From Intestinimonas sp. (GTDB taxonomy: Bacteria > Bacillota > Clostridia > Oscillospirales > Oscillospiraceae): a DNA stretch of 64,000 nucleotides. The stretch spans positions 41,626 to 105,625 of the forward strand of contig JALCSB010000011.1 of assembly GCA_022653075.1 (NCBI GenBank), given 5' to 3'. Within the stretch, counting starts at the first letter, position 1. Each line of letters opens with the position of its first letter. The translations under genes were made by a program, and so were the position numbers. A model generated the notes under the pieces. The model was given only the letters and a program-made list of their open reading frames with translations. It ran no database searches and had not been told where the DNA came from. Positions 6,601-12,213 of the stretch are shown piece after piece.

Positions 6601-8697
6601 TCAGGACTCAGAGGAGGGTTCCTCGCCACTCGAGGTCTCCTCGCCACTCTTTGAAGTTTCCGGCGCGGGCGCGTCGCCCCCGGAAAGAGGAATAGGAGCT
6701 GAAGGGTCCTCTATCTTCGGCGCGGCCGGCGGTTCGGACGCGGGGCCCGCTCCGAATTGATCCTCGGCCTGCTCCGGATCCTTGCCAGCCAAAATGGCCA
6801 TCATCTCGGCACCTGTGATGGTCTCCTTCTTCAGCAGGTACAACGCAATGGCATTCAGCATGTCCCGGTTCTCCTCCAACAGTTTTACCGAATCGGCATG
6901 GCACTTCTGGAGAAGGTCCTGGACTTCCCGGTCAATCACCGCGGCGGTCTCCTGGGCGCAGTTGAGGCCATAATTACCCTCCAAATACTGACTTTTTACC
7001 GTGGCCAAGCCCATCATGCCAAACTTGTCGCTCATGCCGTACATAGTGACCATCTTCCGGGCCAGATCGGTGGCGCGCTCAATGTCGTTGGAAGCACCGG
7101 AGGTCATGGTGCCGAACACCACTTCCTCGGCGGAGCGACCGGCCAACAGCGTGCGGATTTCGGTAAGCAGATCATCTTTGGTCATGAGGAACTTCTCCTC
7201 CTCGGGCAGCTGCATGGTATAGCCCAGTGCGCCCTGGGTGTGGGGCACAATTGTAATCTTGGAAACCGGCTGGGCGTTCTTCTGCCGGGCCGCCACCAGG
7301 GCGTGGCCCACCTCGTGATACGCAATCAGTTTCTTCTCCTTCTCGGTAATGACGGTACCCTTCTTCTCACTGCCGGCAATCACCAGCTCGAAGGAGGCCA
7401 GCAGATCCCGCTGGTTGACCGCCCGGCGGCCCAGACGCACGGCCCGAAGAGCGGCCTCGTTGACCAGATTGGCAAGGTCTGCACCCACACAGCCTGCGGT
7501 AGCCTGCGCAATTTTATTGAGGTCCACGTCCTCCGCCAGCCGGATATTACGGGTGTGAACCTGAAGCGTGGCCAGACGGCCCGCCAGATTGGGCCGGTCC
7601 ACAATGATGCGCCGGTCAAACCGGCCGGGCCGCAGCAGAGCCTTGTCCAGCACCTCCGGCCGGTTGGTAGCCGCCAGGACGATTACACCCTTGGTGGGAT
7701 CGAAGCCATCCAATTCCGCCAGCAGCTGGTTTAGGGTCTGCTCCCGCTCGTCGTTGCCGCCCATACGGTTGTCCCGGCTTTTGCCAATGGTATCGATCTC
7801 ATCGATGAAGATAATGCAGGGGGCCATTTTGGCGGCCTCCTTGAACAGGTCCCGGACCCGGCTGGCGCCCACGCCCACAAACATCTCCACGAAATCGGAG
7901 CCGGAAATGGAGAAGAAGGGTACGTTGGCCTCGCCGGCCACGGCCTTGGCCAGCAGCGTTTTGCCGGTACCGGGGGAGCCCACCAGCAGCGCGCCCTTGG
8001 GCAGCTTGGCCCCAATCTCGGTATATTTTTGTGGATTATGGAGAAAGTCGATGATCTCCTCCAGACTCTCCTTGGCCTCGTCCTGACCGGCCACATCCCG
8101 GAAGGTGACTCCGGTCTTTTTCTCCACATAGACCTTGGCGTTGGCTTTACCCACGCCGCCCAGGCCGCCGCCCATCCGGGTGGACATGCCGCGGAACAGC
8201 AGGGACATAAGGACCATCATAACGGCCATGGGCAGCACCCAGGATACCAAGAAAGAAATAATGGGGGACAGCTCCTCCACGTAGGGGGCACTGTAGGTCA
8301 CGTCATGCTCATCCAGAAGGGAGATCAAACGCTCCCTGTCCTCGTTGATGGGGGCGCAGTAATAGGTTGCGGCGGCGCCATCGGACAGATCTCCCAAGCT
8401 TTCCAGGCCAGGGACAACCGTCGTATCCTGCTGGTCGTCGTCTGCGGACGCGTCCTCTTTAGGGGTAATGGTAATTTTGTTGTTGCCGCTTTCAAAAACC
8501 ACCTCTTTTACCTTATCGTCCTTCACCATCTGGATCAGGTCGCTGTATTTAATCTCAGTGGTATGGGAGTTGGATAGGGAGGAGGTAAAGTAATTGACGG
8601 CAAGGGTAATAATAAGGGCCCAGAGAATGATAGAAATGATGCCCATCATGTTGCGGTTTGAGTTGTTGCCGGACCCGGTTCCCTTTTGGGGTTTCAA
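6601..8697 (-). CDS. ftsH: ATP-dependent zinc metalloprotease FtsH
   Basis: Walker [14 protein letters not shown], Walker [12 protein letters not shown] region, zinc motif HEVGHAL, two N-terminal TM segments. Confidence 0.97.
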
Positions 8698-8961: not shown

Positions 8962-9735
8962 ATGAAACAGCGAAAGACGGTTCGGGACTCCGAAGCCGGG
9001 GCTGACGGCATTATTGAAGGACGAAACGCGGTTATGGAGGCCCTTCGGGCCGGAAGCCCCATTGACAAAATCCTCATCGCCAGGGGCGAGACTGATGCCA
9101 CGCTTGGGCACATCGCCAGCACAGCGCGGGACAGGGGCATCGTGGTGGTGGAGGCGGACCGGAAAAAACTGGACTATATGAGCGCCACCCATGCCCATCA
9201 GGGCGTCATCGCGGTGGCCGCCGTACGGGAATACGCCTCCGTGGAGGATATTCTACAGGCAGCCCGGGATAAAAACGAGCCGCCCCTTATCGTGGTGTGC
9301 GATGAGCTGTCGGACCCCCACAATTTGGGAGCCGTCATCCGCACCGCCGAGTGTGCCGGCGCGCACGGGGTTATTATTCCCAAGCGGCGCAGCGCCGGTC
9401 TGACCGCCGTGGTGGCCAAAACCTCCGCCGGCGCGGTCTCCCATCTGCCCGTGGCACGGGTACCCAATCTGCCGTCTCTTCTCAAGGAGCTCAAACGCGA
9501 GGGGATCTGGGTGTTCGGCACCGCCGCCGACGGCGGTACGTTTTTGTACGACGCCGACCTGAAGGGGCCCGCCGCCATCGTGATCGGTTCAGAGGGCACC
9601 GGCATGGGCCGTCTGGTCTCCGAATGCTGTGATTTCCAAGTCAGTATCCCCATGCGGGGAAAACTCAATTCCTTAAATGCCTCCGCTGCCGCCGCCATTT
9701 TTCTATATGAGGCCGTACGTCAGCGGATAGGCTGA
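8962..9735 (+). CDS. rlmB: 23S rRNA (guanosine-2'-O-)-methyltransferase, RlmB/TrmH (SpoU) family
   Basis: SpoU motifs: LSDPHNLGAVIRTAECAGAHGVIIPKRRSAGLT, IVIGSEGTGMGRLV, IPMRGKLNSLNASAAAAIFLYE. Confidence 0.93.
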   Translation: MKQRKTVRDSEAGADGIIEGRNAVMEALRAGSPIDKILIARGETDATLGHIASTARDRGIVVVEADRKKLDYMSATHAHQGVIAVAAVREYASVEDILQAARDKNEPPLIVVCDELSDPHNLGAVIRTAECAGAHGVIIPKRRSAGLTAVVAKTSAGAVSHLPVARVPNLPSLLKELKREGIWVFGTAADGGTFLYDADLKGPAAIVIGSEGTGMGRLVSECCDFQVSIPMRGKLNSLNASAAAAIFLYEAVRQRIG

Positions 9736-9793
9736 CGGTTTTCAGCCCGTTGGCACGGCCCACTTTATCTTTATTAATCAGGTGATCTTTCGT

Positions 9794-12163
9794 ATGGCAA
9801 AGGACCGTGAACAAAAAGATCAAATTAAGACCGACGCCACCACCGCCGTGGACAAGCCGTCGGAATTTTCGCTGGAGGATATTCTGGCGGAATTCGGCAG
9901 CGGGCACGCGGAGACCGGGCGCTCCGGAGAACAGGGGGACAGCGGCAGGCCCGACCTCCCCTTGCCGGAGGCTGAACATCATCCGGTACCGGGAAATATT
10001 GTGCCGTTTCCACGCAGCGAAACGGACGAATTAAACGGTGCCGAGCCCTTGCCCAACAGCGATGAGCCGGACGATGACGGGCCTCCGCCGGACGGCGATG
10101 AGCCGGACGATGACGGGCCTCCGCCGGACGGCGATGAGCCGGACGACGACGGGCCTCCGCCGGACGGCGATGAGCCGGACGACGACGGGCCCCCGTCTGA
10201 CGGCGATGAGCCGGACGACGACGGGCCCCCGTCTGATGGCAATGAGCCGGGCGATGACGGGCCCCCGCCTGACGGCGATGAGCCGGACAGCGGCGACAAG
10301 ATATTGCCCTTCTCCGAATATACCCCGGAGCAGAGCCCGCTGCAGGACGCCCTGGACCGGCTTCGGAAAAAGGCGGATGATTACGCCGAACAGATGTTTA
10401 CAGAGGAGGGCAAAGAGCACAAACCCAGGACCATGAGACTGGAGCGCCTGATCCCCGGCGTGGATGAGGAGGAAAAAGCACCGCCCAAGCCTAAAAAGGT
10501 CCGGCGAAAAACGTCACCCCCGCCCGATCTGTCCCCATCGGAGCTGACGGCACGTTATGCCAAAGGATTAGGGCTTCTGCGTCTTCGCTCGGTTCTGGTG
10601 CTGTTGCTGGCCCTGCCGCTTTTATATCTAGCGGTGGCGGAGCTGTCCCCGCTGTTTTTGCCCGGCATTCTGGCAAATTCCTTTTCCACACAGGTTTTGT
10701 GTTCGGCGGTGCTGCTGGGCGCCGCCATGCTGCTGGGCGTGGACGTGCTGCTGCGGGGCGTGTGGGATTTGTTTCTGCTTCGTCCCGGTGTCCACACCCT
10801 GTGTTCATTTGCCTGTGCAGCCACGCTGGCCGACGCACTGACTCAGTTCCGGCTGACTCCGGAACGTCACGTATTGCCGCTCTGTTGTGTCTGCGTGCTG
10901 TCCATCTTCTTCGCCCTGCGGGGCGAGTACATCGGTCGCCAGGGCCTGCGTCTGTCCTGCCGGACGGCGGCGTCCGCGGCGGAGCCGTACCTGGTTACCC
11001 TGGATGAAAATTGTTGGAATGGAAGGGATACCTACGCAAAGTGGTCCGGTCTCATCCACGGCTTCGGCAGCCAGATTCAGGAGGATGATCTGTCCCGCAA
11101 AGTCTGGAAACGGGCGGCACCTCTGCTGTTGCTGGCATGTTTCCTGCTTTCTCTGGTGGCCTCGGTGGGCCACCGTACGCCGGAGCATATGTTGTGGTGC
11201 CTGTCCGCCATGCTGACCGCCTGCACCTCGTTTTCCGGATTTTTGACTTTCGCACTGCCTTTCCGTACGCTGACCCGGAGGCTGGCCGCCTCCGGTGCGT
11301 CCCTTCCCGGCTGGTCCGCCGCAGAAAAGGCGGGCGGGGCGCTGCTGGTCAACGACACCGATCTGTTTCCCCCCGGCTCCGTCTCTATGAACGGTATTAA
11401 AGTATTCGGCGACTTTCCCGTGGAAAAAGTCGTCGGCGTTACCGCCACTCTGATTCGGGACTCCGGCAGCGGCCTCGATCAGCTATTCCACGACCTGCTG
11501 CGGACGCAGGGGGCCGTTTACCGTCGGGCCGCCGATGTAACACGGCACGAAGGCGGCGGTCTGTCCGGCGTCATCCGCGGAGAACAGATTCTGGTCGGCT
11601 CGGCCGCTTTTCTCTCTCTAATGGCAGTTCCGCTGCCTCCGGGGCTTAAGGTACATAATGCGGTGTTCTGCGCAATTGACAACCAACTGGCCGGGGTGTT
11701 CGCCCTCAACTACACCATGAATCTCCCCATACCGCCGGCCCTCTCCGCCCTGATCTCCGCTTCGGTGTCACCGGTGCTGGCCACCCGGGACTTTAATCTT
11801 ATTCCCGCTATGCTGCGGCAGAAGTTCAAACTACCTGTGGATAAAATGGCCTTTCCCGCCACCGACCGAAGGGCGGAGCTGTCCGACCCCAACCGGCCCC
11901 ATAGCGGGCGTATCGTCGCCGTGCTCTGCCGGGAAGGCTTAGTCCCCTTCGCCGAGGCCATCATCGGCGCCCGGCGGTTACGCGGGGCGGTCCGGCTGTC
12001 CACCGGCCTGTCCGTACTGGGCGCGCTGGTGGGGCTGCTGCTGTCCTTCTATCTCAGCTTTATCTCTGCCTGGATCTCCCTTGCGGCCATTCATCTGGCC
12101 TTCTTTCAGCTGGCCTGGCTGGTACCGGTCTGGCTCATCAGTGGTTGGGTAAACCGATACTAA
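9794..12163 (+). CDS. Multi-pass membrane protein resembling a degenerate (catalytically inactive) P-type ATPase, with N-terminal acidic/Pro tandem repeat
   Basis: Layout of TM segments, then 'ALP...LTRRLAASGASL..AAEKAGGALLVNDTDLFPPG' in the place of 'ALP...DKTGTLTxG', then 'GVIRGEQILVGSAAFL' (P1B N-domain-like), then 'VFCAIDNQLAGVFAL...LATRDFN', then C-terminal TMs. Confidence 0.7.
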   Translation: MAKDREQKDQIKTDATTAVDKPSEFSLEDILAEFGSGHAETGRSGEQGDSGRPDLPLPEAEHHPVPGNIVPFPRSETDELNGAEPLPNSDEPDDDGPPPDGDEPDDDGPPPDGDEPDDDGPPPDGDEPDDDGPPSDGDEPDDDGPPSDGNEPGDDGPPPDGDEPDSGDKILPFSEYTPEQSPLQDALDRLRKKADDYAEQMFTEEGKEHKPRTMRLERLIPGVDEEEKAPPKPKKVRRKTSPPPDLSPSELTARYAKGLGLLRLRSVLVLLLALPLLYLAVAELSPLFLPGILANSFSTQVLCSAVLLGAAMLLGVDVLLRGVWDLFLLRPGVHTLCSFACAATLADALTQFRLTPERHVLPLCCVCVLSIFFALRGEYIGRQGLRLSCRTAASAAEPYLVTLDENCWNGRDTYAKWSGLIHGFGSQIQEDDLSRKVWKRAAPLLLLACFLLSLVASVGHRTPEHMLWCLSAMLTACTSFSGFLTFALPFRTLTRRLAASGASLPGWSAAEKAGGALLVNDTDLFPPGSVSMNGIKVFGDFPVEKVVGVTATLIRDSGSGLDQLFHDLLRTQGAVYRRAADVTRHEGGGLSGVIRGEQILVGSAAFLSLMAVPLPPGLKVHNAVFCAIDNQLAGVFALNYTMNLPIPPALSALISASVSPVLATRDFNLIPAMLRQKFKLPVDKMAFPATDRRAELSDPNRPHSGRIVAVLCREGLVPFAEAIIGARRLRGAVRLSTGLSVLGALVGLLLSFYLSFISAWISLAAIHLAFFQLAWLVPVWLISGWVNRY
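10061..10276 (+). repeat. 36-bp in-frame tandem repeat, 6 copies plus a partial 7th (protein unit DEPDDDGPP[P/S]DG)
   Basis: GATGAGCCGGACGAtGACGGGCCTCCGCCGGACGGC begins at 10061, 10097, 10133, 10169, 10205, 10241; partial at 10277. Confidence 0.95.
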
Positions 12164-12171
12164 TCTCCATA

Positions 12172-12213
12172 AAAATACCGGGGTACGGACCTAAATTCGT
12201 ACCCCGGTATTTT
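12172..12213 (+). terminator. Rho-independent terminator between convergent genes
   Basis: AAAATACCGGGGTACG-N10-CGTACCCCGGTATTTT. Confidence 0.85.

Follow-up and report, generated by a model that had tools for sequence, protein, structure and literature searches.

What does the gene that follows rlmB code for in the window, meaning the whole stretch of 64,000 nucleotides that was analysed: a metal pump, the decayed remains of one, or a protein made from a pump for some other use? The initial annotation read here a membrane protein resembling the P-type ATPases but dead for phosphorylation, and its open reading frame, coordinates and quoted peptides all proved exact. Its placement of the gene after rlmB and with ftsH divergent also holds, rlmB lying 58 bp upstream and ftsH on the opposite strand. 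Translation might instead begin at an in-frame GTG, at 9782, though this is less likely. The 58-bp gap, the shared strand and a terminator downstream are the grounds for inferring joint expression, and rlmB and the gene probably share a transcript. The features of the locus are:

6601 to 8697, − strand: ftsH, divergent from rlmB, a neighbour only
8962 to 9735, + strand: rlmB, a SpoU-family 23S rRNA methyltransferase, upstream of the pseudo-ATPase gene
9794 to 12163, + strand: gene of the presumed pseudo-P1B-ATPase, 789 aa, from the reading frame, profile homology and family conservation
12172 to 12213, + strand: likely terminator of rlmB and the pseudo-ATPase gene, an 18-bp hairpin with a T-rich 3' side (z = -6.1)

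Within the gene the following parts can be told apart:

9794 to 10555, + strand: N-terminal tail of 254 aa, acidic (74 D+E, 26 K+R), Pro-rich, probably disordered, cytosolic
9866 to 9895, + strand: FSLEDILAEF, close to the N-terminus, a short motif that recurs in homologues and may be a docking helix
10059 to 10288, + strand: tandem repeat in the tail, 36-bp unit, 6.4 copies, 93% matches, coding (GDEPDDDGPPPD)n
10559 to 12157, + strand: eight helices in the P1B order MA, MB, M1, M2 // M3, M4 // M5, M6
10976 to 11089, + strand: short M2-M3 loop, without TGE, in place of the actuator domain
11225 to 11233, + strand: T-S-F where the CPC metal site sits in M4
11351 to 11377, + strand: N-DTDLFPPG in place of DKTGTLTxG (family motif D-x-D-[LI]-F-P-x-G)
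11462 to 11476, + strand: SGSGL in place of the ATP-binding SEHPL motif
11549 to 11602, + strand: EGGGLSGVIRGEQILVGS, the N-domain glycine motif, retained (G589 in 57/58 members, G602 in 58/58)
11786 to 11797, + strand: RDFN where TGDN stands (D666 in 56/58, N668 in 54/58)
11897 to 11902, + strand: junction of the GDGxND deletion, about 32 residues gone

The helices fall at residues 256-284, 297-327, 333-353 and 360-394 (MA to M2) and at 433-457, 463-499, 717-756 and 764-788 (M3 to M6), as placed from AF2 helices (confident only to M2), hydropathy and the alignment to LpCopA.

At the phosphorylation site, profile alignments set NDTDLFPPG on DKTGTLTxG without gaps, and so N520 (AAC, 11351-11353) takes the place of the catalytic Asp, D521 that of the Lys and D523 that of the Gly, just as the initial annotation had proposed. 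The replacement is shared by the relatives: D-x-D-[LI]-F-P-x-G is family-wide and DKTG[T/I] occurs in 0 of 117 distinct members, against 30 of 30 control P1B pumps retrieved with the same profile from genomes of the same order and class, these controls having been recognised by that very motif and each also passing the TIGR01525 cut-off. Across the 117 members the catalytic-Asp column holds T in 44, D in 21 (divergent members), R in 10, S in 10, K in 8, N in 7 and E in 4, with others making up the rest; the Lys column has gone to Asp in 92, the Gly column to Asp or Glu, and TLT to [LIV]-F-P. The annotation's further points, that no TGES-type actuator motif is visible, that GVIRGEQILVGSAAFL is the P1B N-domain motif and that RDFN replaces TGDN, are borne out, the TGE being a gap in 89 of 89 members with most of the A domain gone. 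The losses reach further than it had recognised: the GDGxND Mg-binding hinge motif is deleted here and absent from 116 of 117 members; SEHPL (SGSGL here) has had its E, H and mostly its P replaced across the family, and the ATP-site Glu is gone; the M4 metal site has none of CPC, CPx or SPC and reads A/S-P/S-F/L in the family, TSF in the window protein. Bit score alone does not separate pumps from members, since the control pumps reach up to 164 bits against the family profile and most members score far higher but the most divergent only 137, an overlap at the extremes; the motifs do separate them. Judged at the level of motifs, the phosphorylation cycle of a pump and canonical metal transport would be impossible or nearly so.

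The ancestry of such a protein has to be read through the family, since the window protein itself has no Pfam or NCBIfam match and its sequence matches best, among those of the PDB, HMA4, a copper ATPase of plants (E = 6e-4). The protein was present in 56 of 60 related genomes searched and in 39 of 39 near-complete ones. Against the PDB, a family profile from the alignment of 56 members finds LpCopA (3rfu) at E = 7.8e-30, HMA4 at 1e-20 and CopA (AfCopA) at 5e-20, and the LpCopA match is full length in two blocks, one over the M-helices and the other over P, N and M5-M6. TIGR01525 is found individually by 29 of the 56, and hhalign of the family alignment against a separate alignment of true P1B pumps gives 99.95% at E = 1e-38 over 554 columns; the homology with P1B-type ATPases over M-P-N-M is thus seen by profile searches and hhalign alike. 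An AF2 core model built with five sequences has a pLDDT of 50.7, with the soluble part below 50 (34.3 for the P/N part modelled alone). A Foldseek search with this low-confidence model nonetheless gives P1B ATPases or domains of them as all ten best matches, with E near 1e-3 for no more than the first two or three. For the P/N fold it is the profile that recognises the domain, and the best Foldseek matches, which are P1B, come from a model of that low pLDDT. Rooting the tree on the pumps groups the family in a single clade, with support of 0.93 and a long stem. Descent of the family from P1B (heavy-metal) copper-type pumps is supported by these sequence comparisons.

What the family has put in place of the lost motifs is itself strongly conserved. 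In D521-x-D523-[LI]-F525-P526-x-G528, D521 is kept in 53 of 58 members, F525 in 52 and P526 in 53; Y640 is kept in 57 of 58; R665-D666-[FP]-N668 and the N-domain EGGG...VGS with its G589 and G602 are conserved, as are R265, D317, G322, P290, P443 and P489 in or near helices. The initial annotation had stressed the retained Thr and distal Gly of DKTGTLTxG; its reading of these letters stands but not its emphasis, as strong conservation is found at new residues (D521, D523, F525, P526) or at shared ones elsewhere (G589, G602, Y640, D666, N668). In the pump-rooted tree, members on either side of the family root have the D521-x-[DE] pattern, which is therefore probably ancestral to the family. Most members with Asp in the catalytic column belong to a few lineages, where it therefore looks derived.

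At a threshold of E ≤ 1e-40, 290 of the order's 297 genomes, in 143 of its 145 genera, carry exactly one copy of the gene; in two genomes there is a pair of matches, as split copies would give. Among 291 sampled genomes of the class, 13 of 13 matches at E ≤ 1e-40 fall within the order, a search that relatives too divergent for the threshold and away from rlmB could escape; the 1.5-kb flanks of 30 rlmB genes outside the order hold no family relative, and the viral contigs searched hold none. The order is most likely Oscillospirales, because the named relatives are Oscillospiraceae, Candidatus Galloscillospira included. Between congeners dN/dS is 0.10-0.42, and the family is under purifying selection. 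P-type homology, loss of the catalytic motifs and purifying selection, the three marks of the pseudo-P-type class, thus all occur together, which makes this a pseudo-ATPase family and not a decayed gene; we regard the pseudo-P-type identity of the family as very highly probable. The phosphorylation-dead P-type relative that the initial annotation proposed agrees with the profiles, the family-wide replacement motif and the selection. Intact P1B pumps are found in 16 of 16 genomes checked, that of the window included, and so the cell does not depend on the pseudo-ATPase for metal export. Near-universality in the order predicts a core function.

The explanation that we favour, with reasonable confidence, is that a dead P1B pump has become a membrane-anchored regulatory scaffold or sensor; the scaffold or sensor role, taken by itself, is held more tentatively, as an attractive possibility. 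In an ancestor of the order the actuator domain of a P1B pump would have gone, together with the motifs for phosphorylation and ATP binding, the metal site and the Mg site GDGxND; the eight-helix membrane body and a P/N-like cytosolic module would have stayed, and the protein would have acquired the DxDLFPxG / RD(F/P)N surface and an N-tail that is long and acidic. A ligand or protein may then bind the remodelled P/N cleft and the acidic tail may recruit a cytosolic partner, with the pseudo-ATPase presumably expressed together with rlmB. A regulator is suggested because catalysis is lost, retention is strong and an N-terminal motif recurs. The tails of homologues are 113-512 aa long and acidic in 108 of 115, and the FSLEDILAEF-like motif, which looks like a docking helix for a partner, is found in 66 of 115 by a looser pattern. 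Against the explanation count the strict form of that motif, present in only 45 of 115 tails, the low confidence of the models of the soluble domains, the likeness of D521 and D523 to motif I (DxD) of HAD phosphatases, which makes some residual chemistry conceivable, and the housekeeping neighbours (metK, rlmB, an EF-G paralogue), which point to no single pathway. That FSLEDILAEF might be a docking motif used genome-wide was rejected, as a whole-genome look found no second protein of the window's genome that matches it.

The retention of all eight P1B-like helices, with conserved residues in or near them, would also suit a passive or gated channel or carrier, in which an ion or small solute would still pass through the membrane body, and ligand binding to the cytosolic module, with no phosphorylation involved, would gate its passage. 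The helices, however, have few conserved charged residues, and the lost CPC site has no conserved Cys, His or Met in its stead, and conduction seems unlikely.

The neighbourhood gives rise to another reading. Of the 70 loci where this could be judged, 67 have rlmB directly upstream and co-oriented; among the other three, one lies at a contig edge and another has the family gene split, with rlmB just upstream. Often metK and a rhomboid protease, named by eye from sequence, are upstream, and an EF-G paralogue stands directly 3' in 25 of 82 loci (for example L056:4094-6160, − strand). The recurrent cluster, (metK)-rlmB-pseudoATPase-EFG, is a housekeeping one and not metal-related. In one family of the order, f18, the gene directly upstream of rlmB codes for another degenerate P-type ATPase, unrelated to the first (L045:8554-10764, − strand; also L151, L152, L153, L156 and L161). 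Its ancestry is P2/P3 (TIGR01524 at 7e-18, PF00122 at 2e-16), and its five members, from two genera, have no TGE, DKTGT, TGD or GDGxND, TGE having become FGA, FSS or HEN and DKTGT having become DASEL, DAGEL or KHSAF; rlmB is alongside four of the five, and the short flank of the fifth locus holds none. Two unrelated dead pumps flanking rlmB are suggestive, though no proof, of a functional link. With rlmB on one side and, in some genomes, the EF-G paralogue on the other, the family might be an order-defining pseudo-pump: the order's ancestor would have taken over a dead copper ATPase as a membrane hub, constitutive and linked to ribosome maturation, and f18 would independently have brought another dead P-type ATPase, from a different class, to the same locus. 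This more specific proposal we consider doubtful.

Less probable still is residual enzymology. In such a reading D-x-D-[LI]-F is the motif I of a HAD-type phosphatase or phosphotransferase shifted by one residue, and D521 the nucleophile acting on a small phosphorylated substrate. The hhhhDxD string does resemble motif I, few residues are conserved better than D521 and D523, Asp stands in the pump's catalytic column in those 21 members, and a register shift of one residue would put the conserved D521 at the nucleophile position. In the ungapped alignments, though, D521 falls on the pump's Lys, nine of the 117 members have Asp at neither candidate position, and the acidic motif IV (GDGxND) is deleted in all members but one, so that motif I at the nucleophile site and motif IV are not found together. 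A sporulation-specific membrane protein appears similarly improbable: spoIVA, in 282 of 297 genomes of the order, has nearly equal breadth, but the neighbours are not spore genes, and a purely sporulation role is weakened by the 14 of 15 genomes without detectable spoIVA that keep the gene. That the gene is a decayed pump, or is kept solely through a transcript shared with rlmB, might be argued from the loss of every pump motif and the constancy of rlmB, but it is already contradicted by open frames in nearly all members, single copies in 98% of genomes, dN/dS of 0.1-0.4 and conserved new motifs and is extremely improbable. Neither of the two objections that the initial annotation had foreseen holds at the level of sequence: one-off decay is contradicted by homologues that equally have no DKTGT, and a P/N domain is recognised by profile.

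Compared with the P1B ATPases (CopA, TIGR01525, TIGR01511; LpCopA 3rfu, HMA4 8q75), the membrane body and the P and N regions are homologous, and the eight-helix order, the N-domain GxG..VG motif and the D of TGD are shared; unlike them, the family has no actuator TGE, DKTGT, SEHPL, GDGxND or CPC, has the new DxDLFPxG and RD(F/P)N, and carries a long acidic N-tail in place of the metal-binding domain. With HAD phosphatases it shares the hhhhDxD likeness but not motif IV, and the alignment register favours the pump mapping. In function the closest parallels are two eukaryotic proteins. Human TMEM94 likewise has a P-type-like architecture without TGES, and no ATPase activity was detected in it (PMC12134183), inactivity in our family being read from motifs; the status of TMEM94 is disputed, a further paper reporting it as an ER Mg2+ ATPase (PMC13322241). 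Unlike the family, TMEM94 is eukaryotic, of another P-type class, and keeps an A-like domain and the Asp (D417). The P4-ATPase-like domain of Plasmodium GC-beta, a signalling protein, also has P-type homology with most signature residues degenerate (PMC6592433), but is eukaryotic, of the P4 class and fused to a guanylate cyclase. Literature searches returned no description of such a bacterial family; subscription papers and older P-type surveys lay outside them, and an earlier notice is possible.

Dead P-type ATPases are barely known, the few examples found being eukaryotic and one of them disputed, and here a bacterial family has one copy in nearly every genome of a gut-abundant order. As no Pfam model covers it, its members probably go under the name of hypothetical proteins or are mislabelled as metal pumps. 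Because it fails the defining tests of the P1B class, the label of metal pump should be withheld from it, and annotation of P-type ATPases by homology that is blind to motifs is unsafe. The conserved new motifs point to the residues that are likely to matter.

Some smaller observations concern single lineages. The GDEPDDDGPPPD-coding repeat of the tail was seen in none of the other members read, and the tract likely varies in length. At L046:3626-6058 the family gene is in two adjacent ORFs, by frameshift or assembly error, and an in-frame TGA in one genus proved only apparent, its position being outside the aligned region. In genus g251 (family f2) neither of the two sampled genomes, G372 and G425, gives a match to the gene at E ≤ 1e-40; this may be a natural loss, and as such could show the need that the protein serves.
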